A stretch of 64,000 nt of DNA from Sinomonas sp. R1AF57 (lineage in GTDB: Bacteria; Actinomycetota; Actinomycetes; Actinomycetales; Micrococcaceae): positions 1,584,817-1,648,816 of the forward strand of contig NZ_CP022463.1 in assembly GCF_002224485.1 (NCBI RefSeq). The letters are read 5' to 3'. The notes under the pieces were generated by a model. It searched no databases. It was not told the origin of the DNA and was given only the letters and a program-made list of their open reading frames with translations. Position numbers and translations under genes: made by a program. Shown in pieces: positions 31,638 through 47,498 of this stretch (position 1 is its first letter; each line of letters begins with the position of its first letter).

Positions 31638-31643
31638 GCTGTG

Positions 31644-33044
31644 ATGCCTTTCCTTGACCAGCTGCGCCGCTGGGCGGCGCAGAAGCCGCACGAGCCCGCG
31701 GTGGTGTGCGGGCGCGAGCGGCTCACGTGGTCCGAGCTGCACGACGCCGCGGCAGCCCTCGCGCGGTCAGGCGAGCCCACAGGCATCCTCCGGCAGGGCA
31801 ACGGCGTCGACTTCGCCGTCCGATGGGCCGCGGGCGTGGCGGGGGAGCGCGAGTGCGCCGTCCTGGACCCGCTGTGGCCAGAGCAGCTCGCCTCCGACGT
31901 CGAGGCCCGCCTCGCCGAGCGCTGGCGCACGGTGGAGCCGGTCCCGGCGGAACTGGCCGACGGCGATCCCGACTCCTCCTTCCTCGTCGGCCTCACCTCG
32001 GGCACGACCTCGCTGCCGAAGGGCTTCTCGCGCGCGCGGGGCTCGTGGCGGCGGTCCTTCGACGCCTCGATCGAGTGCTTCGCGCTCAAGCCCGAGGACA
32101 GGGTCCTGGCGCCGGGGCCGCTCTCGGCGAGCCTGAACCTGTACGCACTCTCGGAGTGCCTGTACGCCGGGGCCACATTCCACACCCTCCCGCACTTCGA
32201 TGTCGGCGACGCCCACGCGGAGATCACCTCGCGGGGCATCACCAGGCTCGTCCTGGTCCCGACGATGCTGAGGGTCCTCGCCGAGCGCGGCCTCACCGGG
32301 GACGTCGACGCGAGCGGCGTCACCGCCGTCGTGTGCTCGGGGCAGAAGCTCGACCTCCGCACGCTCGAAGCGGTCCGGCGGTGGGCGCCTCAGGCCGCGG
32401 TGTGGGAGTACTACGGCGCCTCCGAGCTCTCGTTCGTCGCGGCGCGCCTCCACGAGCCTGGAGCCGTCGGCGCCGAGGTCGGGACCGGCGTCGGGCGCGC
32501 GTTCCCCGGCGTCCGCCTGGCCATCCTCGACGACGCGGGCAAGCCGCTGCCCGACGGCGGGGTGGGCAACATCTGCGTGAAGAGCGCCCTCGTCTCTGCA
32601 GGCTACGTGTGGGGCGACGACGGCGAGGCGTTCACCAGGCTCAGCGGCTGGGCCACGGTGCGGGACCAGGGGTTCCTCGACGGCGACGTCCTCCACGTCC
32701 TCGGCCGCAGGGCCGACATGATCAACACGGGCGGCGCCAACGTGTACCCGCACGAGGTCGAGGCGGCGCTGGCGATGCTTCCCGGCGTGGCGGAGGTCGT
32801 CGTCGCCGGCGTTCCCGACGACGTGCGCGGGCAGCGGATCGTGGCCGGGATCGTGCCCTCGCACGCGGGGCTCGGGCAGCTCGCCCTGCGCGCGGGCCTC
32901 GAGGGCTCGCTCCCGCCGGTCAAGCGGCCGCTGGCGTACCTCGAGCTGGCCGAGCTCCCCACCACAGAGCGGGGCAAGCTCAGCCGGGCCGAGTTCCAGC
33001 GCTGGGTCCTCGAGGGCGACGCCCGTGCGCGGCCCCTTCCCTGA
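31644..33044 (+). CDS. AMP-forming acyl-CoA ligase (ANL superfamily)
   Basis: This 466-residue enzyme should adenylate a carboxylic acid and pass it to CoA. The phosphate-binding loop is LTSGTTSLPKGFS, the A5 motif is EYYGASELS, and the C-terminal hinge and lid read VLGRRADMINTGGANVYP and ELPTTERGKLSR with the catalytic Lys. It is shorter than long-chain acyl-CoA synthetases and resembles O-succinylbenzoate- or benzoate-type ligases. An in-frame GTG at 31641 is possible. The 3' end overlaps the thiolase gene by 20 nt, so its product may feed the thiolase. The acid substrate cannot be told. Confidence 0.85.
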   Translation: MPFLDQLRRWAAQKPHEPAVVCGRERLTWSELHDAAAALARSGEPTGILRQGNGVDFAVRWAAGVAGERECAVLDPLWPEQLASDVEARLAERWRTVEPVPAELADGDPDSSFLVGLTSGTTSLPKGFSRARGSWRRSFDASIECFALKPEDRVLAPGPLSASLNLYALSECLYAGATFHTLPHFDVGDAHAEITSRGITRLVLVPTMLRVLAERGLTGDVDASGVTAVVCSGQKLDLRTLEAVRRWAPQAAVWEYYGASELSFVAARLHEPGAVGAEVGTGVGRAFPGVRLAILDDAGKPLPDGGVGNICVKSALVSAGYVWGDDGEAFTRLSGWATVRDQGFLDGDVLHVLGRRADMINTGGANVYPHEVEAALAMLPGVAEVVVAGVPDDVRGQRIVAGIVPSHAGLGQLALRAGLEGSLPPVKRPLAYLELAELPTTERGKLSRAEFQRWVLEGDARARPLP

Positions 33045-34266
33045 GCCCGGCGCCGGCCGGCGACTCGCGCCGGACGGTGCGCCCCTCGTCGTCGCCGGCC
33101 AGCGCACTCCGCTCGCGCGCGCCGGCACCCTGCTCGCCGGCGTCCCCGCCCATCGGCTGCTCGCCCCCGTCCTGGAGGCTCTGACCGCGGCGCCCGGCCT
33201 CGACCCCGGGCGGCTCGCCGACGTCGTCGTCGGGAACGCCGCAGGGGGAGGCGGCAACCTCGCCCGCCTCGCCGCCCTCGACGCCGGACTGCCCGAGCGC
33301 CTCCCAGGCATCACGGTGGACCGGCAGTGCGGGTCGGGGCTCGACGCCGTGGTCCTCGCCTGCAGGCTCGCCCAGGCGGGCGCCGGCGATGCGTTCCTCG
33401 CCGGCGGCACGGAGTCGATCAGCACCGCACCGGTGCGCGGGAGACGGCTGCCAGACGGCGGCGTCGACTTCTACCACCGCGCCCAGCACGCCCCGACTCG
33501 CGACGGCGAGGCGGAGCCCGGCGACCCCGACATGGGCTTCGCTGCCGAGACGGTGGCGCGCGAGGCCGGCGTGGCCCGTGATCGCCAGGACTCGTTCGCG
33601 CTGCGCAGCCACCGTCTGGCCCTCGCCGCGGCGTCCTCGGGGGCGTTCGACGCCGAGCTCGTGCCTGTGCGCGGAGGTGGCGGGTGGGTGCGCGCGGACA
33701 ACGGACCCCGCGCACGGCTTGACGCCAGGCTCCTCGCCCGCTTCCCGGCGGCGTTCGCTGCCGGGGGGACCGTCACGGCCGGGAACTCGTGCTTCGACGC
33801 CGACGGCGCGGCAGCCGTGCTCGTGGTGGCCCGCGATGCCGCGACGGGCTGCGAGGGGGCCGGCGGACGCGCGTCGCTGGCCTTCGTGGGCGCGACGACC
33901 GTGGGGGTCGACCCTCGGCGGCTCGGCCTCGGGGCGGCAGCGGCGGCTGGGTCGCTGCTGTCGGATCTCGGGCTGGACATCCAGGACGTCGCCGCCATCG
34001 AGTTCAATGAAGCCTTCGCGGGCCAGGTCCTCGCGTGCACCGACCGGCTCGGCCTCGGGCGCGCGCAGCTGGAGGCCGTGCTCAACACGGGCGGCGGTGC
34101 GCTCGCCCTCGGGCACGCGTACGGTGCCTCTGGGGCGGTCTCGGTGGTCCGGCTGCTCGCCCGGGCACAATCGCTCCCCGACGGCGCGCTGTGCCTCGCG
34201 CTCATCAGCTCCGCGGGGGGCCTTGGCACAGCGGCCCTCTTCGAGACCAGGAGGCCGCGCGGCTGA
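33025..34266 (+). CDS. Thiolase-family protein lacking the second catalytic Cys
   Basis: This 413-residue thiolase-fold protein has the acylated nucleophile in DRQCGSGLDAV (Cys102), NEAFAGQVL and the histidine motif GHAYGASGAVSVV. The usual C-terminal CXG motif is replaced: the aligned stretch reads ISSAGGLGTA, with Ser where the proton-shuttling Cys should be. That suggests altered chemistry or a non-thiolase role such as an acyl-acceptor. It starts with GTG inside the ligase gene, so both are probably translated together. Confidence 0.8.
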   Translation: MRGPFPEPGAGRRLAPDGAPLVVAGQRTPLARAGTLLAGVPAHRLLAPVLEALTAAPGLDPGRLADVVVGNAAGGGGNLARLAALDAGLPERLPGITVDRQCGSGLDAVVLACRLAQAGAGDAFLAGGTESISTAPVRGRRLPDGGVDFYHRAQHAPTRDGEAEPGDPDMGFAAETVAREAGVARDRQDSFALRSHRLALAAASSGAFDAELVPVRGGGGWVRADNGPRARLDARLLARFPAAFAAGGTVTAGNSCFDADGAAAVLVVARDAATGCEGAGGRASLAFVGATTVGVDPRRLGLGAAAAAGSLLSDLGLDIQDVAAIEFNEAFAGQVLACTDRLGLGRAQLEAVLNTGGGALALGHAYGASGAVSVVRLLARAQSLPDGALCLALISSAGGLGTAALFETRRPRG

Positions 34267-34320: not shown

Positions 34321-34326
34321 TATGCT
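34321..34326 (+). promoter_or_regulatory. -10 box of the formate dehydrogenase operon
   Basis: TATGCT lies 7 nt before the fdhA ATG at 34334. No Shine-Dalgarno is present in between. Confidence 0.5.
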
Positions 34327-34333
34327 CCCGGAC

Positions 34334-37300
34334 ATGGCACGGCGAAGCTTCCTTGAGTGGCCAGTGGTTCGGCAGGTGACCACGGGCGACCTGTTCGGCC
34401 GCGGACCATCGGTCACGTCGCCCAAGACGCAGGCGATCGCCCCGCGGACGTCGACAGCCGACCGCGTCGTGCAGAGCGTCTGCCCGTACTGTGCTGTGGG
34501 ATGTGGACAACGTGTCTACGTCAAGGACGAGAAGGTCGTCCAGATCGAAGGCGATCCGGACTCGCCCATCTCGCGCGGCCGGCTCTGCCCCAAAGGTTCC
34601 GCGAGCGAGCAGCTCGTCAATTCGCCGGGCCGGCAGACCCGAGTGCTGTACCGCGCCCCCCGCTCCACCGAATGGCAGCATCTGGACCTGGAGAAGGCCA
34701 TCGACATGGTGGCGGACCGGTTCATCGAGACGCGCCGCAGGACCTGGCAGCAGGAGGACCAGCACGGACGGCTGCTCCGACGCACGATGGGGATCGCGTC
34801 GCTGGGCGGCGCCACCCTCGACAACGAAGAGAACTACCTCATCAAGAAGCTCTTCACGGCTGCCGGGGCGGTGCAGACCGAGAACCAGGCGCGCATTTGA
34901 CACTCCGCCACGGTTCCCAGTCTGGGAGCCTCGTTTGGACGCGGTGGTGCGACGCAATCACTGCAGGACATGGCCAATGCCGACTGCATCGTCATCCAGG
35001 GCTCGAACATGGCCGAGTGCCACCCTGTGGGATACCAGTGGGTGGCGGAGGCGAAGGCCCGCGGCGCAAAGGTCATCCATGTAGACCCCAGATTCACGCG
35101 CACCTCCGCGGTCGCTGACAGGCACATCCCGATCCGTGCCGGCTCGGACGTTGTCCTCCTGGGCGCGCTCATCAACTACGTCATCACCAATGACCTCTGG
35201 TTCACGGAGTACGTGAAGGCGTACACCAATGCGGCAACGCTGGTGCACGACGACTACCGCGACGCCGAGGATCTCGGCGGACTGTTCTCCGGCTTCGATC
35301 CGGAGAAGCGGGCGTACGACACGTCGTCATGGTCGTACGCGGAAGAGGGCGGCGACCGCGTCGAGGAGCCCGGGGCCGCCTCGGAACACGGCGTCCATGC
35401 TTCGGCCCGCGCCGCTGGCGACGTCTTCGGCAGTGGCGGGCCCGCCTTGGAGCATGCCCAGGTGCAGCGCGATGACACGCTGCAGGACCCGCGGACCGTC
35501 TTCCAGATCGTCAAGCGCCACTACTCCCGCTACACCCCCGAGGTGGTCCGGGACATGTGCGGCATCGACATCGCCGACTTCGAGTATCTGGCGCGCACCA
35601 TCGCGGAGAACTCGGGGCGCGAGCGGACGACGTGCTTTGCCTACGCCGTGGGCTGGACCCAGCACACACTGGGGGCGCAGTTCATCCGCGCCGCCGCGAT
35701 CCTGCAGCTTCTGCTCGGAAACGTGGGCCGCCCCGGCGGCGGCATCATGGCTCTGCGCGGCCATGCAAGCATCCAGGGCTCCACGGACATCCCGACGCTC
35801 TTCAACCTGCTCCCTGGGTACCTTCCCATGCCCAGCGCAGGCCGCCACGACACCCTCAGCGACTATCTGGACGCCGTCGCGTCGAAGAAGCAGAAGGGAT
35901 TCTGGGCCGACGCGGACGCCTACACCATCAGCCTGCTGAAGGCCTGGTGGGGCGATGCCGCGACGGCGGAGAACGACTGGGCGTACGACTACCTTCCCCG
36001 GCTGACCGGAGCGCACGGCACGTACGAGACGGTGATGGGCATGCTCGACGACGAGGTGGAGGGCTACTTCCTCCTCGGACAGAATCCGGCCGTCGGGTCA
36101 GCCCACGGCCGCATGCAGCGGCTGGGGATGTCCCACCTGAAATGGCTGGTGGTGCGGGACCTGAATCTCATCGAGTCGGCCACGTGGTGGAAGGACGGCC
36201 CGGAAATCGAGTCCGGGGAGCTGCACACCGAGGACATCGAGACCGAGGTGTTCTTCCTGCCTGCCGCCACCCATGTGGAGAAGGCGGGGTCGTTCACCCA
36301 GACCCAGAGACTGCTGCAGTGGCGGCACCAAGCGGTCACACCCCCTGGAGACTGCCAGAGCGAACTGCAGTTCTTCTTCGAGCTGGGCCAGCGGATCCGC
36401 CAGAAGCTGGCCGGGTCCGACGACGAGCGCGACCGCCCGCTGCTCGACCTCACCTGGGACTATCCCACGGACGAGCACGGCGATCCCGACCCCGAGTCGG
36501 TGCTCGCCGAGATCAATGGCCGTCATCTCGAGGGGCCGGACGCAGGCAGGCCCCTCTCGGCGTACACCGAGCTGCGTGCCGACGGTTCGACCTCGGGCGG
36601 CTGCTGGATCTACACCGGCGTGTACGCGGACGGCATCAACCACGCCGCCAACCGGAAGCCCGGCCACGAGCAGGGGCCCGCGGCTCCGGAATGGGGATGG
36701 GCCTGGCCCGCCAACCGCAGGATCCTGTACAACCGGGCATCTGCCGACCCGGCCGGCAAGCCGTGGAGCGAGCGGAAGAAGTACATCTGGTGGGACGAGG
36801 AACAGCAGCGATGGGTGGGCGATGACGTTCCCGACTTCCCGCCTGACAGGGCCCCGGGGAGCAAGCCCGACCCCGCGCTCGGCGGTCCCGCCGCGCTCAG
36901 TGGAGATGATCCGTTCATCATGCAGTCCGACGGCAAGGGCTGGCTGTTCGCTCCCAAGGGCCTCGTGGACGGACCCCTTCCCACCCATTACGAGGCTCAG
37001 GAATCGCCGGTGGCCAACGTGCTGTACCCGCAGCAGCAGAGCCCAGCGCGGCTCGTCTTCCCCCGAGCCGACAACCTGAGTGCGCCAAGCGCCGGCATCA
37101 GCGGTGCTGACGTCTATCCCTACGTCTTCACCACCTACCGGCTCACGGAGCACCACACTGCGGGAGGCATGAGCCGCTGGCTCCCGTACCTCTCGGAACT
37201 GCAGCCGGAGATGTTCTGCGAGGTTTCGCCCGAGCTGGCCGCCGAGCGAGGGCTCGAGCCCTACGGGTGGGCAACGATCATCTCGCCGCGCTCGGCCATC

Positions 37301-37678
37301 GAGGCGAAGGTGATCGTCACCGAACGGGTGAAGCCGCTGACCGTGGGCAACCATACGGTGCACCAGATCGGCCTGCCGTACCACTGGGGCGTCGGGGAGA
37401 ACGCGGTCGTCAGCGGCGATGCGGCCAACGACCTCCTGGGCGTGACACTGGACCCGAATGTCCAGATCCAGGAGTCGAAGGTCGCCTCCTGCGATATCCG
37501 GCCTGGCCGCCGGCCCCGAGGGGCGGACCTGCTCGCCCTCGTGGCGGAGTACCAGCAGCGGGCGGCCACGACGCCTGAGACCGGGAACAGCGCGGTCACC
37601 GATCCCGCTGCCGAAGGCTTCGCTCCCGGACCCGGCCAGAGCGGCGAGGCGGGCACCGACTCGAGGGTGGAGGACTAG
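34334..37678 (+). CDS. fdhA: Formate dehydrogenase alpha subunit, selenocysteine-containing (UGA read-through)
   Basis: This molybdenum/tungsten bis-MGD enzyme oxidises formate to CO2. The frame is continuous from 34334 to 37678 except for one TGA at 34898-34900. The residues around it, NQARI-U-HSATVPSLGA, match the family position of the metal-ligating selenocysteine followed by the catalytic His, so TGA encodes Sec189 in a 1114-residue protein. The N-terminus binds one [4Fe-4S] cluster through Cys50, Cys53, Cys57 and Cys85; the C-terminal domain is the MGD-binding domain (VKPLTVGNHTVHQIGLPYHW read in part). The N-terminal ARRSFLE looks like a Tat motif but no hydrophobic stretch follows, so a cytoplasmic site is more likely. 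Automatic callers would split this gene in two. It starts the fdhA-fdhB-nrfD operon. Confidence 0.95.
34898..34900 (+). other. In-frame UGA selenocysteine codon (Sec189)
   Basis: TGA interrupts an otherwise open frame precisely at the metal-ligand position of the formate dehydrogenase active site. The complete selA, selB, selD and tRNA-Sec set lies within 10 kb. Confidence 0.95.
34912..34930 (+). promoter_or_regulatory. SECIS-like hairpin in fdhA mRNA
   Basis: GGTTCCC pairs with GGGAGCC (one G-U) around the loop AGTCT. The loop lies 19-23 nt after the UGA, the same spacing as the AGGUCU loop of the E. coli fdhF SECIS, and CGGTT before it matches fdhF as well. It would bind the C-terminal domain of the SelB encoded downstream. 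Confidence 0.75.
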
Positions 37679-38689
37679 ATGGGCCAGCTGTCCGGACCGA
37701 CCGATCCCACTGCCGATGCTCACTGGGAGAACGCCCAGTCCCGGAAGGGGTTCTTCACCGACACCTCTATCTGCATCGGCTGCAAGGCCTGTGAGGTTGC
37801 GTGCAAGGAGTGGAACCACAATCCCCAGGACGGGAACCTCGAGCTGCTCGAATCCTCGTACGACAACACCGGGGCACTGGGGGCGAGCACGTGGCGCCAC
37901 GTCGCCTTCGTCGAGCAGGGCAGGGAACGGATCGTCGAAGCCCGCGAGTCCGGACGTGCGCTCGTCAATCTGGGGATGCCCCGGGTCGGCCCTCCAGCGG
38001 CTGCCGCGGAGATGACGGCGAACCTCGCGGAGGCAGATACGACGCCGCCGGACACCGCCGACTTCCGGTGGCTGATGTCCTCCGACGTCTGCAAGCACTG
38101 CACCCACGCCGGATGCCTCGACGTCTGTCCCACCGGAGCGCTCTTCCGCACCGAGTTCGGCACCGTCGTTGTGCAGGACGACGTGTGCAACGGCTGCGGG
38201 ACCTGCGTGGCAGGCTGCCCCTTCGGAGTGATCGAACGCCGCCGCGACGGGACTGTCGCGGTGGCTGCCGAGCGGGAGGACCGGCACGCCGAGCACCCCG
38301 CGGTCCCCAACGTGGGCATCGCCCAGAAGTGCACGCTGTGCTATGACCGCCTGGTGGCCGACGAGACGCCGTCGTGCGCCAAAGCCTGCCCGACGACGTC
38401 CATCAAGTTCGGCGACCACGACGACATGGTGGAGACGGCGAGGGAGCGGGTCGCCGCCCTGCACGAGCAGGGCCTGACGGAGGCGAGGCTCTACGGCGCG
38501 AACGAGCTCGACGGCGTCGGCGGAACCGGCTCAGTCTTCCTGCTGCTCGACGAGCCCGAGGTCTACGGGCTTCCGCCGGACCCGAAGGTTCCCACGGCTG
38601 ATCTGCCCCGGATGTACCGGCGTGCGGGCAGCGCCGTGGCCGGAATGGTGGCCGCGGCCGCGTTGGCTTTCGTGAGAGGACGTGCGTGA
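37679..38689 (+). CDS. fdhB: Formate dehydrogenase iron-sulfur (beta) subunit
   Basis: This 336-residue ferredoxin-like protein carries electrons from FdhA to the membrane. Four cysteine clusters are visible: Cys32-X2-Cys35-X2-Cys38-X3-Cys42 (CIGCKACEVACKEW), CKHCTHAGCLDVCP, CNGCGTCVAGCPFG and CTLCYDRL...CAKACP, enough for four [4Fe-4S] clusters. A hydrophobic stretch at the C-terminus (GSAVAGMVAAAALAFV) may anchor it. The ATG abuts the fdhA stop and the end overlaps nrfD by 4 nt. Confidence 0.94.
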   Translation: MGQLSGPTDPTADAHWENAQSRKGFFTDTSICIGCKACEVACKEWNHNPQDGNLELLESSYDNTGALGASTWRHVAFVEQGRERIVEARESGRALVNLGMPRVGPPAAAAEMTANLAEADTTPPDTADFRWLMSSDVCKHCTHAGCLDVCPTGALFRTEFGTVVVQDDVCNGCGTCVAGCPFGVIERRRDGTVAVAAEREDRHAEHPAVPNVGIAQKCTLCYDRLVADETPSCAKACPTTSIKFGDHDDMVETARERVAALHEQGLTEARLYGANELDGVGGTGSVFLLLDEPEVYGLPPDPKVPTADLPRMYRRAGSAVAGMVAAAALAFVRGRA

Positions 38690-39777
38690 CCCACTCGGAT
38701 TTTGACAGTTTCCGGCCACCGGCGCCTCCCCGCCGCGGTTTCCGGGGCGGCCCCAAGCGTGGTGTACGCCGTCGCGACGGTGGCGACGGATCTCGGGAAA
38801 TGCCGATGGTGCCGGAGCCCGAGTTCACCTCCTACTACGGCCGTCCTGTGGTCAAGCCCGCGCCGTGGGGCGACGACGTTGCCGCCTACCTGTTCCTTGG
38901 CGGCGTCGCGGGAGGGTCCGCGCTGCTCGGCTTGGGCGGCCAGCTGACCGGACGCGAGACGCTGCGCCGGAACGCGCGGCTGAGTGCCCTCGCAGCGGTC
39001 AGCCTCGGCGCGGCTGCACTTGTGAAGGACCTCGGCCGGCCGGAACGCTTCCTGCATATGCTCCGCACCTTCAAGCTGACCTCGCCGATGAGTGTCGGCT
39101 CCTGGATCCTCAGCGCGTTCAGTGCCGGCGCAGGCGTGGCGGCGGTCGCGGAGATCGACCGCATGAGTGGCAGGCGGCTGCCGCTGGGCCCGCTGCGGCC
39201 GGTACTGCAGGCTGTCGAGGGGCCGGCCGGATTCGAGGCGGCGCTGTTCGCCGGTCCGCTGGCGGCATACACAGCGGTCCTGCTCGGCGACACTGCCACG
39301 CCGACCTGGAACGCAGCCCATGAGGAGCTGCCCTTCGTCTTCGTGAGTTCGGCGTCGCTCGCCTCAGCCGGGCTCGCCATGATCACGACTCCAATCCACG
39401 AGGCCGGTCCGGCCCGGACGCTCGGCGCGATCGGCGTCGTCGGCGATCTCGTGGCGACGCGGGTCATGGAGCACCGGATGGACCCGGTGGAAGCCGAGCC
39501 CCTGCACGAGGGCAAGCCCGGTGCCATGCTGAAATGGAGCGAGCGGTTGGCGATCGCCGGCGGGGTGGGGACACTGCTGGCTGGCCGCAGCCGCGCTGTA
39601 GCCGCAGCCTCGGGGCTCGCATTGCTGGCCGCTTCCGCCCTCACCAGGTTCGGCCTCTTCGAAGCAGGCCTTGCTTCGGCCAAGGACCCGCGCTACACGA
39701 TCGAACCGCAGAAGAAGCGGCTCGCGGCCCGCCGCGCGGCCGGCGTCACGAACGATTCGATCACCACGGCGCGCTGA
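38686..39777 (+). CDS. nrfD: NrfD/PsrC-type membrane subunit
   Basis: This 363-residue membrane protein is the likely quinone-reducing anchor of the formate dehydrogenase. After a 45-residue charged, Arg-rich N-terminus, about eight hydrophobic helices follow, beginning DVAAYLFLGGVAGGSALLGL, with VKDLGRPERFLHMLRTFK between helices 2 and 3, the NrfD-family hallmark. No haem-ligand histidine pattern of a FdnI-type cytochrome b is evident. The GTG start overlaps fdhB by 4 nt (GTGA). Confidence 0.9.
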   Translation: MTHSDFDSFRPPAPPRRGFRGGPKRGVRRRDGGDGSREMPMVPEPEFTSYYGRPVVKPAPWGDDVAAYLFLGGVAGGSALLGLGGQLTGRETLRRNARLSALAAVSLGAAALVKDLGRPERFLHMLRTFKLTSPMSVGSWILSAFSAGAGVAAVAEIDRMSGRRLPLGPLRPVLQAVEGPAGFEAALFAGPLAAYTAVLLGDTATPTWNAAHEELPFVFVSSASLASAGLAMITTPIHEAGPARTLGAIGVVGDLVATRVMEHRMDPVEAEPLHEGKPGAMLKWSERLAIAGGVGTLLAGRSRAVAAASGLALLAASALTRFGLFEAGLASAKDPRYTIEPQKKRLAARRAAGVTNDSITTAR

Positions 39778-39791
39778 TACGCCAGCTCCGT

Positions 39792-40817
39792 CTAGCGGAC
39801 CTCGATGCCCCCGCCCACCACGGTGTGGCCGACCACGGGATGCCCGGGCACTTCTCCGACCACGAGCAGGCCGCCCGAGGTCTGCGCGTCGGCAAGGAGG
39901 AGCAGATCGTCGTCCGTGACCCCGGAACCGAACCCCAGATGTGGCCGCACCCAGTCGAGGTTGCGCCGGGTCCCGCCGGAGACGAAGCCTTCCCGAAGCG
40001 ACTCCCGGGCCCCCTCGACCACGGGCACTGACGCCAGGTCGATCACCGCGCCAACTCCGGAGGCGCGGCACATCTTGTACAGGTGTCCCAGCAGGCCGAA
40101 CCCGGTCACATCCGTCGCCGCACGGACCCCCGCCGCCACCGCTGCCTCGGCTGCGTCGCGATTCAGTGCCGTCATCGTCGCCACCGCCTCAGGGAACACT
40201 TCGCCGGTCCGCTTGTGCCGGTTGTTGAGGAGTCCGACGCCGAGCGGCTTGGTGAGCGTGATCGGCAGACCGGGCTGCGCCGCATCATTGCGCAGCAGCC
40301 GGTCGGGATGGGCGACGCCGGTCACCGCCATGCCGTACTTGGGCTCCGGATCGTCGATCGAATGGCCGCCGATCACCGGACAGCCCGCCTCTGCGGCGAT
40401 GCTCAGACCGCCGCGGAGCACCTCGGTCATCAGCTCCGTGGGGAGCACCTCGCGGGGCCACCCCACGAGGTTGACCGCCATGATGGGGGTGCCTCCCATC
40501 GCGTAGATGTCGGAGAGCGCGTTGGCGGCGGCGACCCGGCCCCAGTCATAGGCGTCGTCGACGACCGGAGTGAAGAAGTCCGCGGTGGAGAGCACGGCCA
40601 GGTCCTCGCGCACGAGCACCGCGGCGGCGTCGTCGCCGCTGTCGAGGCCCACGAGTACGTCGGCAGCCGGCTGGCCCATCAGACCCCGAACCGCGTCTTC
40701 GAGCTCGCCGGGAGGGATCTTGCAGGCGCAACCGCCGCCGTGGGCATAGCCGGTCAGCCGGAGCGCGCCGACCGCGTCGTCGTCGAGCTGGGTCAGTGAC
40801 GTACGAGCCTCATTCAC
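39792..40817 (-). CDS. selD: Selenide, water dikinase (selenophosphate synthetase)
   Basis: This 341-residue enzyme makes selenophosphate from selenide and ATP, the selenium donor for SelA. The N-terminal catalytic motif is HGGGCACKIPP with Cys30 and Lys33, equal to E. coli Cys17 and Lys20; here SelD itself is a Cys form and not a selenoprotein. Other AIR-synthase-like features are VGLDSGDDAAAV, STADFFTPVVDD and GGHSIDDPEPKYG. The GTG at 40817 lies 6 nt after a TAGGCT box. It is convergent with nrfD and divergent from the tRNA-Sec gene. Confidence 0.96.
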   Translation of the reverse strand: MNEARTSLTQLDDDAVGALRLTGYAHGGGCACKIPPGELEDAVRGLMGQPAADVLVGLDSGDDAAAVLVREDLAVLSTADFFTPVVDDAYDWGRVAAANALSDIYAMGGTPIMAVNLVGWPREVLPTELMTEVLRGGLSIAAEAGCPVIGGHSIDDPEPKYGMAVTGVAHPDRLLRNDAAQPGLPITLTKPLGVGLLNNRHKRTGEVFPEAVATMTALNRDAAEAAVAAGVRAATDVTGFGLLGHLYKMCRASGVGAVIDLASVPVVEGARESLREGFVSGGTRRNLDWVRPHLGFGSGVTDDDLLLLADAQTSGGLLVVGEVPGHPVVGHTVVGGGIEVR

Positions 40818-40823
40818 CCGCCC

Positions 40824-40829
40824 AGCCTA
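40824..40829 (-). promoter_or_regulatory. -10 box of selD (leaderless type)
   Basis: TAGGCT on the minus strand lies 6 nt (GGGCGG) before the selD GTG. It falls where the -35 of the opposite tRNA-Sec promoter would be. Confidence 0.6.
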
Positions 40830-40845
40830 CCCTCCAGCCACCTGC

Positions 40846-40851
40846 TACATT
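40846..40851 (+). promoter_or_regulatory. -10 box of the tRNA-Sec gene
   Basis: TACATT lies 7 nt before the first base of the tRNA, the usual distance to a transcription start. Confidence 0.5.
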
Positions 40852-40858
40852 GGGCTCC

Positions 40859-40953
40859 GGTGGCGTCCGGGTCCTGGTGGGCCCCCCGGTCTTCAAAACC
40901 GGTGAGACCGAGCATCTCGGTCTGGCGGGTTCGATTCCCGTCCGCCACCGCCA
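40859..40953 (+). tRNA. selC: tRNA-Sec (anticodon UCA)
   Basis: The 95-nt gene includes an encoded CCA. It has the special Sec layout: a 6-bp D stem (GGGTCC/GGGCCC, loop TGGT), anticodon stem CCGGT/ACCGG with loop CTTCAAA and anticodon TCA at 40893-40895, an 8-bp long variable arm (AGACCGAG-CAT-CTCGGTCT), and T arm GCGGG-TTCGATT-CCCGT. The acceptor strands GGTGGCGT and CCGCCACC form seven pairs; the eighth position is a T-C mismatch, where E. coli has a pair. Discriminator G precedes CCA. It reads UGA codons when bound by SelB. Confidence 0.95.
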
Positions 40954-40989
40954 ACCATCGGCAGGTGCTGCCGGCACTGAGGAGGGCAT

Positions 40990-42321
40990 GTGGACGACGT
41001 CGACCCTCGCCGCCTCATCCCCCGCACGAATGACCTACTGGCCCTGCCGGCTGTCCATCAGGCCCGAAGCCGACTGAACGAGCGCGTCATCCGGGACACC
41101 GTCCGGCAGGTTCAGGAGCGGGCACGGCGCGGCGAGCTCCCGCCCAGCGATGTGGAGGCGGCCTTGGTCGGCGCTCTGACTGCGCGCAGTGCGGCATCCC
41201 TCCGCCCGGTGCTGAACGCGACGGGCGTCATCGTCCACACCAACCTCGGCCGCGCCCCTCTCTCCGCTCGTGCGGTTGAAGCCCTCGTGGCAGCCAGCGG
41301 CTACGTCGACGTGGAGCTGGACCTCGCAGACGGCACCCGCTCACGCCGCGGCGCGAGCGCCCGCGCCGCTCTGCTCGCCGCCTGCCCGGCTGCCGAGGAC
41401 GCACTGGCAGTCAACAATGGGGCCGCGGCCCTGGTCCTGGCGACCACAGCTCTCGCCGCCGGCCGGGAGGTGGTGGTGAGCCGCGGGGAACTCGTCGAGA
41501 TCGGAGCAGGCTTCCGCCTGCCCGACCTGATCGAGTCGACCGGCGCAGTGCTCCGCGAGGTGGGGGCGACCAACCGGACGCACCTGCGCGACTACGCCAG
41601 CGCCGTCGGCCCCGAGACGGGCTGCGTGCTCAAGGTCCACCCGAGCAACTTCCGGGTGGACGGCTTCACCTCCGCCGTCGGGCTGGGGGAGTTGAGTGCT
41701 CTGGCGGCCGGGCACGGGATACCGCTCGTGGCTGATCTTGGGAGCGGGCTGCTGGCACCCGACCCGTACCTGCCGGACGAGCCCGATGCTGCGACCGCGC
41801 TGGGCGACGGTGCCGACGTCGTCATCGCCAGCGGCGACAAGCTGCTCGGCGGCCCCCAGGCGGGCCTGCTGTTGGGCGGCAGGGAGATCATCGAGCGGCT
41901 GGCGCGCCACCCGCTCGCGCGGGCCGTCCGGGCGGACAAGCTCGCCCTCGCCGCCCTCGAGGCGACGGTTGCGGGGGACCCGCCGCCGGTGGTTCGGGCG
42001 CTGCATGCCGACGCGGGGGAGCTGCGGCGCCGAACGGACACGCTCGCCCGCGCCCTCGGCGTACTTGTCGTGCCGCACGACGGTCGGGTTGGCGGCGGCG
42101 GTGCCCCCGGTGTTCCCCTGCCTGGATGGGCGCTTCAACTCCCCGAGGGGATCGCGGCCCTCCTGCGCACCGGCGAGCCCGCCGTGCTGCCGCGCGTCCA
42201 CGACGGCTCGTGCCTCGTGGACCTGCGCTGCGTGCCCGAAGACGACGACCACCGGGTCCTCGCCGCAGTGCGACGGGCGCTGGCGGCCCTCGACGGCGCG
42301 GGTGCGGGCAGGGCGGGCTGA
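40990..42321 (+). CDS. selA: L-seryl-tRNA(Sec) selenium transferase
   Basis: This 443-residue PLP enzyme converts Ser-tRNA(Sec) to Sec-tRNA(Sec). The PLP lysine lies in ASGDKLLGGPQAG (Lys284), and upstream are NATGVIVHTNLGRAPLS and VHPSNFRVDGF, all typical. The start is GTG at 40990, behind GAGGAGG; an ATG two bases upstream is in another frame. The gene lies 36 nt after tRNA-Sec and 3 nt before selB, so selC-selA-selB may be one transcript. Confidence 0.96.
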   Translation: MDDVDPRRLIPRTNDLLALPAVHQARSRLNERVIRDTVRQVQERARRGELPPSDVEAALVGALTARSAASLRPVLNATGVIVHTNLGRAPLSARAVEALVAASGYVDVELDLADGTRSRRGASARAALLAACPAAEDALAVNNGAAALVLATTALAAGREVVVSRGELVEIGAGFRLPDLIESTGAVLREVGATNRTHLRDYASAVGPETGCVLKVHPSNFRVDGFTSAVGLGELSALAAGHGIPLVADLGSGLLAPDPYLPDEPDAATALGDGADVVIASGDKLLGGPQAGLLLGGREIIERLARHPLARAVRADKLALAALEATVAGDPPPVVRALHADAGELRRRTDTLARALGVLVVPHDGRVGGGGAPGVPLPGWALQLPEGIAALLRTGEPAVLPRVHDGSCLVDLRCVPEDDDHRVLAAVRRALAALDGAGAGRAG

Positions 42322-42324
42322 GCG

Positions 42325-44121
42325 ATGCACGTCGTGGCCACCGCCGGACACGTCGATTCCGGCAAGAGCACCCTGGTCCGCGCCCTCACGGGCATGGAGC
42401 CGGACCGCTGGGAGGAAGAACGGCGCCGCGGGCTGACCATCGATCTGGGCTATGCCTGGACCACTCTGGCGTCGGGACGGGAGGTCGCCTTCGTCGACGT
42501 CCCCGGGCATGAGCGCTTCCTCGGCAACATGCTTGCCGGGATCGGTCCCGCGCCCGTCGTCTGCTTCGTCGTTGCCGCCGACGAGGGCTGGCAGGCGCAG
42601 TCCGGCGACCACCGCGACGCCGTCGCGGCGCTGGGCATCGAGCACGGCGTCGTGGTCCTGAGCCGCGCCGACCGGGCGTCCGCGCGCGAGATCGGCGACG
42701 TCCTCGCACAGGCCCGCAGAGAGCTGGCCGGGACAGGCCTGCGGGACGCCCCCGCCGTCGCGGTGTCGGCGACCGAAGGCACGGGCCTGGATGAGTTCCG
42801 CGACGCGCTCGACGGCGTCCTCGCCGGCGTGCCGTCCCCCGCGCCCACCGGCCGGGTCCGGCTGTGGGTGGACCGTTCCTTCGCCATCACCGGCTCCGGA
42901 ACGGTGGTGACCGGGACATTGGGCGCGGGAACCATCGTCCAGGGCGACCAGCTCCAGCTGCTCGGCCACGGGGATCCCCGGCCGGCAGTGGTCCGGGCCT
43001 TGGAGAGCCGGGACGCCTCGTGTGCCTCCGTCGGGCCGGTCAGCCGCGTGGCCGTGAACCTCCGCGACGTGGCCGCCGAGGAGGTCCGCCGCGGCGACGC
43101 ACTCGTCACTCCCGATGCGTGGCCCTCCACGCGTGTCCTGGGCGTCCGCAGGACGACGGGCGCGCCCTACACCGAGGCGCCGGAGCAGCTCATGGTCCAC
43201 GTGGGCACCGCCTCCGTACCGGCCCGGCTGCGTCCCTTCGGGGCCGACCATGCCAGGCTCGTCCTTGACCGGCACCTGCCGCTCGTCCTCGGCGACCGCC
43301 TGGTGCTGCGTGACCCGGGGAGCCGCTCGGTCCTCGGCGGCGCACGCGTCCTCGATGCCGATCCGCCGGAACTGCGCCGGCGCGGGGACAGCACCCGATG
43401 GGCGGAGCGCCTCGCGGGCATGGACCCGGCAGGTGACGTGCTGGGCGAAGTGGCAGCGCGGGGCGCGGTCCAGGAACAGCATCTCCGCCGGCTCGGGCTG
43501 CTCTCGGAGGACCCTGGGGCAGCGCCCCCCGGGGTTCGCGTCCTGCGCGAGTGGTGGGTGCATGCCCCTGTCTTCGAGGCGTGGCAGCAACGGCTGCGCA
43601 CCGCGCTTGAGGCGCTTCAGGAGAGCGACCCCCTGACCCCGGGCCTGTCCATGGGTGCAGCCCGTGACCTGCTCACGCTGCCCGACGAGAGGCTCCTTGC
43701 GCACATCGTCCGGGAGGCCGGCCTCGAACAGGAGGGCGGCCGCGTCCGGCTGCCCGGCGGCCACGGCAGCCTCGGTGCTGCGGAGTCGGCGGTTGCCGAC
43801 CTGGAGCGACGGCTCACCGCAGACCCGTTCCGCGCCCCGGAGGCCGACGAGCTGGCCGCCCTCAAGCTCGGGGCCCGGGAGCTGGCCGCGGCCGAGCGGA
43901 TGGGGCGTGTGCTGCGGCTGCGCGATGGGGTGATTCTCCTCCCGACGGCGCCAGCCCTCGCGATGCGCGTCCTCGCCCGCCTCGAGCAGCCCTTCACCAC
44001 GAGCCAGGCGCGCCAGGCGCTCGGCACCACGCGGCGGATTGCCGTTCCGCTGCTGGAGCATCTCGACTCGCGCGGCTGGACCCGGCGTCTGGACGCGGGC
44101 CACCGCGCGGTGGTCCGCTAG
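42325..44121 (+). CDS. selB: Selenocysteine-specific elongation factor SelB
   Basis: This 598-residue GTPase delivers Sec-tRNA(Sec) to the ribosome at UGA codons that carry a SECIS. The G1 loop is GHVDSGKST at residues 8-16; a DVPGHERF motif (G3) and a VVLSRADR stretch (G4-like) follow. After the EF-Tu-like domains 2 and 3, the C-terminal third is a run of winged-helix units (for example VAARGAVQEQHLRRLGLL and QPFTTSQARQALGTTRRIAVPLLEHL in parts) that bind the SECIS hairpin. Length is normal. It starts 3 nt after selA. Confidence 0.96.
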   Translation: MHVVATAGHVDSGKSTLVRALTGMEPDRWEEERRRGLTIDLGYAWTTLASGREVAFVDVPGHERFLGNMLAGIGPAPVVCFVVAADEGWQAQSGDHRDAVAALGIEHGVVVLSRADRASAREIGDVLAQARRELAGTGLRDAPAVAVSATEGTGLDEFRDALDGVLAGVPSPAPTGRVRLWVDRSFAITGSGTVVTGTLGAGTIVQGDQLQLLGHGDPRPAVVRALESRDASCASVGPVSRVAVNLRDVAAEEVRRGDALVTPDAWPSTRVLGVRRTTGAPYTEAPEQLMVHVGTASVPARLRPFGADHARLVLDRHLPLVLGDRLVLRDPGSRSVLGGARVLDADPPELRRRGDSTRWAERLAGMDPAGDVLGEVAARGAVQEQHLRRLGLLSEDPGAAPPGVRVLREWWVHAPVFEAWQQRLRTALEALQESDPLTPGLSMGAARDLLTLPDERLLAHIVREAGLEQEGGRVRLPGGHGSLGAAESAVADLERRLTADPFRAPEADELAALKLGARELAAAERMGRVLRLRDGVILLPTAPALAMRVLARLEQPFTTSQARQALGTTRRIAVPLLEHLDSRGWTRRLDAGHRAVVR

Positions 44122-44173: not shown

Positions 44174-44797
44174 TCAGTCGTCCCCGAGGCCCCTGGCGGC
44201 GAGGGCGTCGCCGGTCCGCCGCGCGTAGGCCACCGCCGAGAGCACCACAGGAACAGTCCGGGCCCGCACGCTGTGCTCGAGCCCGCGCGCACGGGCAGCA
44301 TCGCCCACTTCCGCGAACGCGCCAGCGAGCACCGGGATGCTCCGCAGCATGATCGCGATCGCGAGGGCGAACCGCTCGGGGTCCGCTCCGAAGCGCTGGA
44401 GGGGCCGAGCGAGCGACGCGACGGCGTCGAGGAGCCGCTCGAGCGGCACCGTGGCCGTGAGGAGTCCCGCTGCCACGAAGCAGAGCAGCAGATTGGCCAC
44501 GATCCGCGTCGCCGTCTCCGGCCCCTGCTGCCAAGACTGGAACGCGAAGAGGACGACGGCGAACGGCAGCACCAGCTTCCACGACGCCGCCAGGCGGCGG
44601 ACTCCGAGCCCCGCCGAGAGCCAGGCTGCGACTGCCAGCCCCAGGACCCCCACGGAGACACGCCAGTCCAGGAGCACGAAGCTCGCCGCACCTGCCGCGA
44701 CCACGCCGAGGAACTTGGCCCACAGCGGCGCCCGATGAAGCCACGAGTCGCCCGGGACGTATCCGGCGAGCAGGCCGCCGGCCGAGCGGGCGCGCAT
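44174..44797 (-). CDS. ecfT: ECF transporter T component (EcfT/CbiQ family)
   Basis: This 207-residue membrane protein is the energy-coupling transmembrane subunit of a vitamin/metal uptake ECF transporter. It has about five hydrophobic helices and near the C-terminus the coupling motif with the Ala-Arg-Gly core, GDAARARGLEH, plus a second AARGLGDD at the end. Its ATG overlaps the stop of the ATPase gene by one base. No substrate-binding S component (such as BioY) is nearby in the window. Confidence 0.85.
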   Translation of the reverse strand: MRARSAGGLLAGYVPGDSWLHRAPLWAKFLGVVAAGAASFVLLDWRVSVGVLGLAVAAWLSAGLGVRRLAASWKLVLPFAVVLFAFQSWQQGPETATRIVANLLLCFVAAGLLTATVPLERLLDAVASLARPLQRFGADPERFALAIAIMLRSIPVLAGAFAEVGDAARARGLEHSVRARTVPVVLSAVAYARRTGDALAARGLGDD

Positions 44798-45558
44798 CAG
44801 CTGCCCTCCGCCGTCGTGCGCGGACCGCCGATCCCGGCAGGCGCGGCGCAGAGCTCACGGTAGAAGCCCACGGCGGCGGCGGGCTTGCCGTCGTAGGCGA
44901 TCCGGCCGCCCTCGACGACGAGGACCCGGTCGGCGTCCAGGGCGAGTTCGAGGTCGTGGGTGGAGAGGATCACCTGCTGGCTCAGTCCGGCCAGTGTGCG
45001 GCGCAGGAGTTCGCGGTTGCGCAGGTCGAGGAGAGTGGACGGCTCGTCGAGGATGAGGACCTCGGGGTCGACGGCGAGCACGGCGGCGAGTGCCATGAGC
45101 TGCCGTTCGCCGCCTGAGAGCTCGTACACGCTCTGGTCGGCGAGCGCCCCGAGCCCGAACCTGTCGAGGACGGCCTGCGCCGCCGCGGCCCGCTCCGCGC
45201 GGTTGCGGTGACTCCGGCGCAGGGAGAGCTCGACGTCTTCGCGCCCCGTGGGCATGACGAGCTGGGAGAGCGGGTCCGTGAACACGAACCCCACGCGCTG
45301 GCGGACCGCGCGCCCGTCGCGGACGGTGTCCAGGCTGTCGATGCGCACACTCCCCGAGGTCGGCTCGACGAGCCCGTTGAACAGCCGGAGGAGTGTGGAC
45401 TTGCCGGACCCGTTGGCACCCAGGACGGCGATGCGCGGCTCCGTGAGCGTGACGCCGACGCCGTCGAGCAGCACTTTCGAGGCGGCGTCGGAGGGCGCGC
45501 CCGTCGGCCCGTCGATGGGGACGGCGACGGAGACGCCGTCGATCTCGATGCAGGCCAT
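44797..45558 (-). CDS. ecfA: ECF transporter ATP-binding component
   Basis: This 253-residue ATPase has Walker A LGANGSGKSTLLR, the signature ELSGGERQLMALA, Walker B VLILDEPSTLLD and the switch His in STHDLELALD, arranged as in CbiO/EcfA. I start it at the ATG 45558, which follows GGAGGA; a longer frame upstream encodes only low-complexity residues. It partners the EcfT encoded next. Biotin (BioM/BioN-like) is a plausible cargo because such two-gene modules exist for it, but nothing here proves it. Confidence 0.87.
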   Translation of the reverse strand: MACIEIDGVSVAVPIDGPTGAPSDAASKVLLDGVGVTLTEPRIAVLGANGSGKSTLLRLFNGLVEPTSGSVRIDSLDTVRDGRAVRQRVGFVFTDPLSQLVMPTGREDVELSLRRSHRNRAERAAAAQAVLDRFGLGALADQSVYELSGGERQLMALAAVLAVDPEVLILDEPSTLLDLRNRELLRRTLAGLSQQVILSTHDLELALDADRVLVVEGGRIAYDGKPAAAVGFYRELCAAPAGIGGPRTTAEGS

Positions 45559-45694
45559 GGTTCCTCCTGTGCTGCCGCCGGACGCGGCCCTCTGCCTCAG
45601 AAGGCTACGCACCGCGGCGACGCTCCGTTTTGTGGGCGGCCCACGACGCCGCCGGGCTGGCTTTGGCGGGGGCCGACAACCGGGTGGGCCTGGC

Positions 45695-45724
45695 GTCGTT
45701 TCCGCTGCCGTCGTTTCCGCTGCC
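45695..45724 (+). repeat. 15-nt tandem duplication upstream of recQ
   Basis: GTCGTTTCCGCTGCC occurs twice in direct tandem within the ecfA-recQ divergent gap. It ends 25 nt before the recQ ATG, so it may change promoter spacing. Confidence 0.7.
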
Positions 45725-45749
45725 GCCGCGACGGGTAGGCGCATCCACG

Positions 45750-47411: not shown

Positions 47412-47442
47412 CGCCGGGTCAGGAGGCCCCCGTCAGGGCCGA

Positions 47443-47448
47443 TACCAT
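47443..47448 (+). promoter_or_regulatory. Candidate -10 box of the ABC-F gene
   Basis: TACCAT lies 50 nt before the ABC-F start, giving a leader of about 43 nt that includes GAAAGG. Confidence 0.35.
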
Positions 47449-47498
47449 GGGATGAGGCCCAGGTCCGGGCCGCATCCCCCGAAAGGCACCCGACTGAC

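Follow-up and report, generated by a model that had tools for sequence, protein, structure and literature searches.

A selenocysteine formate dehydrogenase and its complete decoding gene set form one cassette with signs of movement among Sinomonas genomes

Can the ability to use the 21st amino acid enter or leave a genome as a single piece of DNA, enzyme and decoding machinery together? The question is raised by a locus of Sinomonas sp. R1AF57, in which a three-subunit selenocysteine (Sec) formate dehydrogenase (FDH) and selD, selC, selA and selB are packed into one block at positions 34334–44121 (~9.8 kb) of the window, that is, of the whole 64,000-nucleotide stretch that was analysed. The best explanation overall is very probably that this block is a self-sufficient selenium trait that moves between genomes.

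The first-pass annotation had described a block made up of a Sec FDH, its partner subunits, a SECIS element and the four sel genes, and family matches and conservation bear this out (Table 1). FdhA comprises 1114 residues if the TGA is read as Sec, which is then residue 189. The portion after the TGA alone scores 1594 bits (cut-off 1400) against NCBIfam NF041513, a family that includes both Sec and Cys forms (one Cys paralogue scores 2001), and the Pfam Fe4S4 domain PF04879 lies upstream of the TGA. The best-scoring solved structure among its PDB relatives is 1kqf, the nitrate-inducible FDH of E. coli. FdhB passes the Pfam cut-offs for Fer4_7 and Fer4_11 and reaches 163.7 bits against TIGR01582, under the cut-off of 334.7; FdhC matches PF03916 (NrfD) with 56.2 bits (cut-off 25.8) and stays under the NCBIfam cut-offs. 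SelD is, by eye, the Cys form, with Cys within the motif GGGCACK, selC scores 79.1 bits against Rfam RF01852 (gathering score 47), and SelB has the C-terminal winged helix PF09107 (Pfam). The bacterial Sec-decoding gene set (selA, selB, selC, selD) is therefore complete within the block. The arrangement of its genes is a common one, shared in order and strands by 68 of 80 named loci; 11 do not have all parts inside the stretch compared, and one is rearranged.

Table 1. Features of the cassette and its immediate flanks (positions in the window)
Feature	Position	Strand	Remarks
thiolase, left flank	33025..34266	+	TIGR01930 over cut-off; insertion starts past thiolase stop
-10-like TATGCT	34321..34326	+	seven bases ahead of fdhA ATG
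fdhA	34334..37678	+	Sec formate dehydrogenase catalytic subunit
in-frame TGA, Sec codon	34898..34900	+	single in-frame TGA of fdhA
predicted SECIS hairpin	34912..34930	+	7-bp stem GGTTCCC/GGGAGCC, loop AGTCT
fdhB	37679..38689	+	4Fe-4S electron-transfer subunit, hydrophobic stretch at C-terminus
fdhC	38686..39777	+	NrfD-like membrane subunit
selD	39792..40817	-	selenophosphate synthetase; TIGR00476 390 bits, cut-off 125
selC	40859..40953	+	tRNA-Sec, anticodon TCA (ARAGORN)
selA	40990..42321	+	Sec synthase; TIGR00474 408.9 bits, cut-off 267.9
selB	42325..44121	+	Sec-specific elongation factor; TIGR00475 283.3 bits, cut-off 242.25
ecfT (CbiQ/ECF type) + ecfA ATPase, right flank	44174..45558	-	

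The start of fdhA is likely the ATG at 34334, not 34321/34322, because the homologue on the Arthrobacter plasmid pYA7-1a (see below) has its annotated start at this Met and because the -10-like element overlaps the earlier ATG. By eye, the Micrococcaceae copies have an element of this kind in the corresponding position despite their differing flanks, which suggests a putative promoter and a leaderless fdhA mRNA; also by eye, the similarity among cassette copies stops near this promoter-like element and the selB stop.

Upstream of the block lie genes for an acyl-CoA ligase and the thiolase, and downstream lie ecfT, ecfA and recQ. EcfT passes the Pfam cut-off for PF02361, whereas EcfA finds its best NCBIfam match in ECF_ATPase_1, yet under the cut-off of that family. 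An initial placement of the block after sufT and before ABC-F/fabG genes was roughly right, in that a sufT-like gene and abcF are present, but these stand further out than the directly adjacent genes just named. At this site the block occurs in two of 15 Sinomonas genomes, far from the near-universal presence that vertical inheritance could have left. In the other 13 the gap between thiolase and ecfT, the latter taken in the frame matching Pfam CbiQ, measures only 3–226 bases, so that the site is empty. A second empty site is seen for the cassette of genome G014: in G013, the DNA of its right flank and the gene of its left flank are separated by ~2.8 kb that lack the block. Altogether, eight Sinomonas cassette copies occupy five sites; empty sites in relatives combined with more than one insertion site are the marks of a mobile cassette. 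The two copies that share the window site have an FdhA identity of 92–93%, which is consistent with an earlier suggestion that any acquisition is old.

Phylogenies of the cassette and of rpoB (the latter built from tblastn-defined frames) are in conflict. In AU tests, the sister relationship of G007 and G014 in the rpoB tree is rejected by the cassette data (p = 0.00098), and rpoB rejects both the cassette group of G007 with G002–G004 (p = 0.00012) and the pair G000 + G009 (p = 0.011). The position of G007 depends on which half of the cassette, fdh or sel, is used, with a weak placement in the fdh tree. The thiolase, ecfT, ecfA and recQ trees join G000 + G009, and the ligase tree joins G000 + G008; at third codon positions, the thiolase gene of G000 is as close to those of G002 and G008 (60 and 59%) as to that of G009 (58%). 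The genes adjoining the block share its odd ancestry, an indication of homologous recombination in flanking DNA.

A check of composition, also proposed at the outset, gave a divided answer. The block and the rest do not differ in total GC, but all six cassette protein genes fall outside the codon-usage and GC3 range of 32 comparison genes of our own choice from the window, with GC3 values of 0.83–0.88 in the block versus 0.886–0.974 in those 32. The flanking ecfT, thiolase and recQ genes are among the lowest in GC3 of the comparison set.

These observations also bear on vertical inheritance, by which the Sinomonas ancestor would have had the block, clean losses would have emptied the sites and rearrangement would have relocated the survivors. 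Such a history would account for the grouping of all eight Sinomonas cassettes to the exclusion of 12 Arthrobacter-group copies (support 94/98, unstarred), and flanks common to many mycobacterial copies across species are in keeping with it. We nevertheless consider it unlikely, given the short thiolase–ecfT gaps at 13 sites, the mutual rejection of cassette and rpoB groupings, a mosaic ancestry that is confined to the genes adjoining the block, and the outlying codon usage of the block itself. Since the eight cassettes group together, the block may have entered Sinomonas just once, with later loss and shuffling.

How, then, might the block travel? Within the block, no transposase, integrase or relaxase of its own was found, and all of its genes are assigned to fdh or sel. 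A comparison of exact words between the two junctions gave a longest shared word of 10 bases within ±150 and 11 bases within ±300 of them, in line with the initial impression of no mobility gene or flanking repeat at this locus. A relative of the block is, however, carried by the conjugative plasmid pYA7-1a of Arthrobacter sp. YA7-1 (NZ_CP110115.1), where it is complete and unchanged in order, with 79–92% amino-acid identity to the block in the window; it differs in its plasmid location and in having a Tn3 transposase and a recombinase directly past selB. Together with the empty and multiple chromosomal sites, this plasmid copy supports the proposal, already made in the first-pass annotation, that the block would be transferred as one functional unit. 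A second candidate for plasmid carriage, Tsukamurella 'plasmid 17', was set aside as proof, being typed as non-mobilizable and holding, for example, a 2-isopropylmalate synthase gene.

The Tn3 neighbour on pYA7-1a raises the alternative that the block is itself a self-moving transposon or island, its mobility genes having been lost here or being lent by such an element, and a weak relative of the recombinase (37% identity) does lie ~1 kb past selB at locus L019. This is improbable, more so than vertical inheritance: nothing in the window or at the other compared loci matches the Tn3 transposase, none of the 25 inverted-repeat pairs inspected on the plasmid, out of 32, encloses the block, and the shared words at the window junctions are as short as described above. 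Under the preferred reading of a self-sufficient trait that does not carry mobility genes, the probable routes, perhaps also for the entry of the block into the present genome, would be plasmids between genera and homologous recombination in the flanking genes within Sinomonas.

Is fdhA read through its TGA? TGA occupies the Sec codon in all 74 loci that reach this codon, from 85 loci examined, and the corresponding position is TGC in 11 of 11 Cys paralogues. Across 50 sequences, 98.6% of 350 cells in the stem of the hairpin are paired and two pairs are changed on both sides, and synonymous entropy in fdhA has the minimum of its 883 windows at codons +1 to +9 past the TGA. Folding energy of the region is not exceptional relative to shuffles (z = -0.15, -0.75 and -0.93), and the pair-type count of the hairpin was equalled in 108 of 500 shuffles; folding energy alone was thus dropped as evidence for a SECIS, being indistinguishable from shuffles, and comparative tests were used. 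What these reveal is that a hairpin immediately after the UGA is conserved, as expected of a bacterial SECIS, and SelB is predicted to bind it. An open reading frame split by an in-frame TGA and followed by a hairpin of ordinary folding energy might suggest a broken gene, with the TGA a real stop or a sequencing error and the sel genes bystanders, but this is almost certainly wrong, considering that the TGA sits at the exact active-site codon in every locus that reaches it, that all 11 paralogues have Cys there, that the hairpin is kept through paired changes and that a tRNA-Sec gene lies beside fdhA in the block.

A genome-wide scan with a SECIS model, in which 150 of 6036 first-look candidates were scored, returned fdhA with E = 3e-14 and no other match under E = 0.3; within that scope, and by this model only, the claim that fdhA is the only Sec gene stands. 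The second-best match (E = 0.32) was rejected, its TGA being, by eye, out of frame in an xseA-like gene, and two more matches have E near 5. Searches of the same genome for SelB and SelD gave one true copy each, and one tRNA-Sec match exceeded the cut-off, leaving no additional selB, selD or selC elsewhere to set against a self-contained block.

As for function, FdhA would be a molybdopterin enzyme that oxidises formate at an active-site Sec, with electrons probably passing through the FeS subunit FdhB and the NrfD-like membrane subunit FdhC to quinone. The cytoplasmic side is the probable site of formate oxidation, because FdhA has no recognisable export signal: no hydrophobic stretch was found past RRSF, by eye and by hydropathy, and Tat export via this motif was rejected, relatives reading RFSP, PRSF and similar. 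E. coli FDH-N is a periplasmic enzyme with a cytochrome b membrane subunit, and carries its Sec at the same place as FdhA. Compared with that enzyme (FdnGHI, PDB 1kqf), FdhA is without a Tat signal and FdhC is NrfD-like (PF03916), not of the cytochrome b type. For decoding, by what is established for these families, SelD would provide selenophosphate, SelA would convert Ser-tRNA-Sec to Sec-tRNA-Sec, and SelB would bind the hairpin just past the UGA and deliver Sec-tRNA-Sec. Because the one client gene found, the decoding set and the promoter-like element form a single unit of ~9.8 kb, a single event could give a genome the 21st amino acid or take it away, as appears to have happened in Sinomonas.

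Sec-FDH/sel clusters as such have already been described; what is new here is the evidence of movement. In its accessible text, the 2010 genome paper on Corynebacterium aurimucosum ATCC 700975 reports a comparable cluster in another genus, with FDH genes beside selD, selA, selB and selC, an in-frame UGA and a 'highly conserved' order, and that text includes no comparison of mobility or sites (PMC2830990). The FDH1 cluster of Actinomycetospora chiangmaiensis DSM 45062 similarly encodes a membrane-bound three-subunit Sec-FDH with SelA and SelB, and measurements in Actinomycetospora showed formate removal to be selenium-dependent; as far as the available sections show, the cluster differs in that a permease carries the FDH1 label and SelD does not, and that the genome has three Sec-FDHs (PMC7176365). 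Joint transfer of the Sec genes with fdhA, the sole selenoprotein gene, has been reported (Zhang 2006, PMC1794560; Peng 2016, PMC5029168), and Table 2 of the latter lists two Arthrobacter recipients of the trait. The accessible parts of both papers (PMC1794560; PMC5029168) draw such transfers from trees and distribution and term them rare or very rare, whereas the present evidence comprises junctions, empty sites and a plasmid carrier. The titles and abstract openings listed in literature searches, mostly excluding subscription papers, mention no plasmid-borne Sec-FDH cassette and no Sec trait in Sinomonas.

A more specific reading, which we regard as evenly poised between right and wrong, is that the Sec trait of Micrococcaceae is a compact mobile module of ~10 kb, from promoter to selB stop, that moves back and forth between conjugative plasmids and a large number of chromosomal positions, and that Sinomonas lineages swap the block by flank recombination where relatives hold a Cys enzyme. 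If so, this family would acquire the 21st amino acid frequently and in one step, in contrast to the very rare transfer of selenium traits described in the available text of PMC5029168. The conjugative pYA7-1a, with its complete block, would also offer a means of transferring the trait experimentally.

SelB is present in 92 of 395 genomes of the family, and full-length SelB and SelD together with a tRNA-Sec over the cut-off occur in the same eight of 15 Sinomonas genomes. With this distribution, intact copies at five sites and vacant sites in close relatives, the genus would be a natural test bed for amino-acid gain and loss. It also permits comparison of Sec and Cys in one enzyme, since Sec only (two genomes), Cys only (five), both (six) and neither (two) are all found among the 15; the co-occurrence in six led us to reject mutual exclusion of the two forms. 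The Cys version, absent from the genome of the window, lies near the window-type locus in 11 of the 15.

Full-length SelB occurs in 8 of the 15 Sinomonas genomes compared, and SelD and a tRNA-Sec over the cut-off are found in the same eight; SelB matches elsewhere in the genus are weaker (27–34% identity) and read as EF-Tu or other GTPases. Only in the genome studied here (G000, a single 3.94-Mb contig with the window at positions 1,584,817–1,648,816) and in G009 does the block of formate dehydrogenase (FDH) and sel genes lie at the thiolase–ecfT junction: the two flanking stop codons are 9907 bases apart in G000, 9884 in G009 and 3 to 226 in the other 13 genomes. In G000, the start of fdhA is 67 bases past the thiolase stop, and the block ends 52 bases short of the ecfT stop.

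Features of the block and its flanking genes (window positions)
Feature	Position	Strand	Placement
thiolase	33025–34266	plus	left flank
block (fdhA to selB)	34334–44121		between thiolase and ecfT
fdhA, fdhB, fdhC		plus	first part of block
single in-frame TGA of fdhA	34898–34900	plus	within fdhA
selD		minus	between fdhC and selC
selC, selA, selB		plus	after selD, in that order
ecfT, ecfA	44174–45558	minus	right flank

The remaining six copies in the genus sit elsewhere. Those in G002, G003 and G004 share one site, and those in G006, G007 and G014 occupy separate sites with, at the threshold used, no flank gene in common with other Sinomonas copies. In G013, right-flank DNA of the G014 site and its left-flank gene (FUSC-like, by eye) lie ~2.8 kb apart with no block between them; in the stretches examined of G004, G006 and G007, just this left-flank gene was matched, with no block, besides one further 195-base match at 71% in G004. 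Altogether, 24 Arthrobacter-group and Sinomonas loci fall into 14 flank groups, and similarity between copies stops, by eye, near a promoter-like element upstream and at the selB stop downstream. Two ORFs resembling IS21 IstA/IstB by eye lie ~4 kb upstream of the G006 cassette (L117, 80–1746). The thiolase–ecfT spacers of G008, G011 and G010 (L128, L123 and L129), empty of the block, contain short repeated units in both orientations that look REP-like by eye.

Trees of the cassette and of rpoB disagree. With rpoB (45 rows), G007 and G014 are sisters (100/99) and G000 is not grouped with G009, whereas the cassette tree pairs G000 with G009 and G014 with G006. Trees of all cassette genes and of the sel genes group G007 with G002–G004; the fdh half gives G007 a different, weakly supported position (61/21). 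The pairing of G007 with G014 is rejected by the cassette data (AU p 0.00098), and rpoB rejects both G007 with G002–G004 (p 0.00012) and G000 with G009 (p 0.011), two groups chosen for testing after inspection of the cassette tree. Since the eight Sinomonas cassettes form one group (94/98), the best fit is that the block entered Sinomonas once and was later exchanged among its lineages.

The flanks form a mosaic. G000 and G009 are joined by the trees of thiolase (100/99), ecfT (100/99), ecfA (92/89) and recQ (100/100; matches in the stretch from 9 of 15 genomes), but not by those of abcF and rpoB, and the ligase tree places G000 with G008 (100/99). DNA identity between G000 and G009 in thiolase, ecfT, ecfA and recQ (81–86%) is the highest among G000 comparisons; it is not the highest in ligase, ypfJ, sufC, sufT, abcF or rpoB. 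When third codon positions are compared, G009 is again nearest to G000 for ecfT, ecfA and recQ; thiolase is the exception (58%, against 60% for G002 and 59% for G008). Passage of the block from one lineage to the other by homologous recombination in its flanks would be expected to leave such a pattern. The block separates ligase and thiolase from ecfT and ecfA (31641–34266 and 44174–45558), which together resemble a vitamin-uptake neighbourhood such as that for biotin; the best and second-best NCBIfam matches of ligase and thiolase, PRK07638 and PRK06690, are below cut-off.

Total GC is alike in the block (0.712) and in 32 other, hand-chosen window genes (0.710), but the two sets separate completely in GC3 (0.83–0.88 versus 0.886–0.974) and in codon log-odds (Mann–Whitney p 7e-7 for each). 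A possible type of carrier is seen among plasmids, where SelA was matched in 147 of 72,556 records, one at 80–90% identity and one at 60–80%. The former, pYA7-1a (129,773 bases), is conjugative according to MOB-suite (MOBP, MPF_T) and holds the whole block, including tRNA-Sec, TGA and hairpin. Immediately after it come a Tn3 transposase (NF033527, 1224 bits) and a recombinase; the Tn3 element is a candidate mobilizer. Because its cassette pairs in the cassette tree with the Arthrobacter sp. Soil763 locus and not with Sinomonas, the plasmid copy is a relative of the window block and not its donor. A fragment between selB and the transposase (L214, 21132–21357) resembles part of ThiC, going by a motif seen by eye, and looks as though chromosomal DNA adjoining thiC had been captured. 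In Arthrobacter sp. ES3-54 (L019, 14324–14875), a recombinase 37% identical to that of pYA7-1a lies ~1 kb after selB.

The gene block is of a known kind: an FDH/sel cluster of this type is described in Corynebacterium aurimucosum in the text available from PMC2830990, and the available portions of PMC1794560 and PMC5029168 report that Sec genes and fdhA are transferred together, term such events rare or very rare, and list two Arthrobacter recipients. What is added here is the junction evidence, the multiple sites within one genus, the flank mosaic and the conjugative plasmid carrier, and the evidence for movement is unusually clear.

The recoding signal is conserved. The TGA directly precedes the downstream part of fdhA in all 74 loci that reach the codon (85 examined); the site was located by tblastn with the part 3' of the codon, so this count does not presuppose a TGA. 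The matching codon is TGC in all 11 paralogues. A 7-bp hairpin, starting 11 bases downstream of the TGA, is conserved in 50 distinct sequences, where 98.6% of 350 cells are paired; two pairs carry changes at both positions, each in a single sequence. Pairing together with both-sided changes was matched by 7 of 500 shuffles, the number of pair types by 108 of 500, and pairing drops to about 70% when the register is shifted by one base. Synonymous entropy was scored for 891 codons in 75 sequences, chosen by a TGA-containing pattern; among 883 windows, the one spanning codons +1 to +9 past the TGA has the lowest value. This window contains GTT and AGT, each 1% of its own codon family in 21 window genes. 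Single-sequence folding energy of this region is not exceptional. A whole-genome search with a covariance model of this SECIS (150 of 6036 first-look candidates scored) found fdhA and no second match below E 0.3; a differently shaped SECIS would escape this model.

The best-placed start of fdhA is ATG 34334, because the pYA7-1a homologue is annotated from the same Met and an earlier in-frame ATG sits within a −10-like TATGCT. A similar element precedes other Micrococcaceae cassette copies (by eye), and its spacing from the ATG suggests a leaderless mRNA. FdhD, which serves in FDH maturation, has a match outside the block elsewhere in G000 and in all 15 genomes, FDH-less ones included. FdhA resembles E. 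coli FDH-N (PDB 1kqf), but no recognizable Tat signal was found on it and the membrane subunit is NrfD-like; for these reasons formate is probably oxidized on the cytoplasmic side, with electrons probably passing through FdhC to the quinone pool. For a related membrane FDH cluster in Actinomycetospora, the available text of PMC7176365 reports expression and selenite-dependent formate removal.

A second fdhABC with a Cys codon (TGC) is present in 11 of the 15 genomes (L122–L124, L126, L127 and L129–L134), with abcF on one side and recQ or ecfA on the other, a few kilobases away from where the block is inserted in G000. It is 63–65% identical to the Sec FdhA 3' of the Sec site, and the hairpin letters are not kept (by eye). 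G000 and G009 lack this twin, and the corresponding stretch of the window (45558–47499) contains no FDH. Two genomes carry the Sec type only, six both, five the Cys type only and two neither. One may conjecture that the proposed flank recombination introduced the Sec block and eliminated the Cys genes in the same event.

Across the family, 92 of 395 genomes, representing 14 of 32 genera, have SelB. Among the best 80 of 166 named loci found with SelA, 68 share gene order and strands, 59 of them in compact arrangement, and 11 do not show every part within the stretch examined. In the sole rearranged locus, L080 (Leekyejoonella), the fdh module is inverted and found at the opposite side of selB; the block's two halves are therefore open to rearrangement. 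Twelve loci (L030, L038–L040, L047, L055, L057, L058, L071, L074, L077 and L078), from Mycobacteriaceae, Gordonia and one unclassified organism, contain 1.2–4.4 kb of extra DNA at fdhC–selD or selD–selA.
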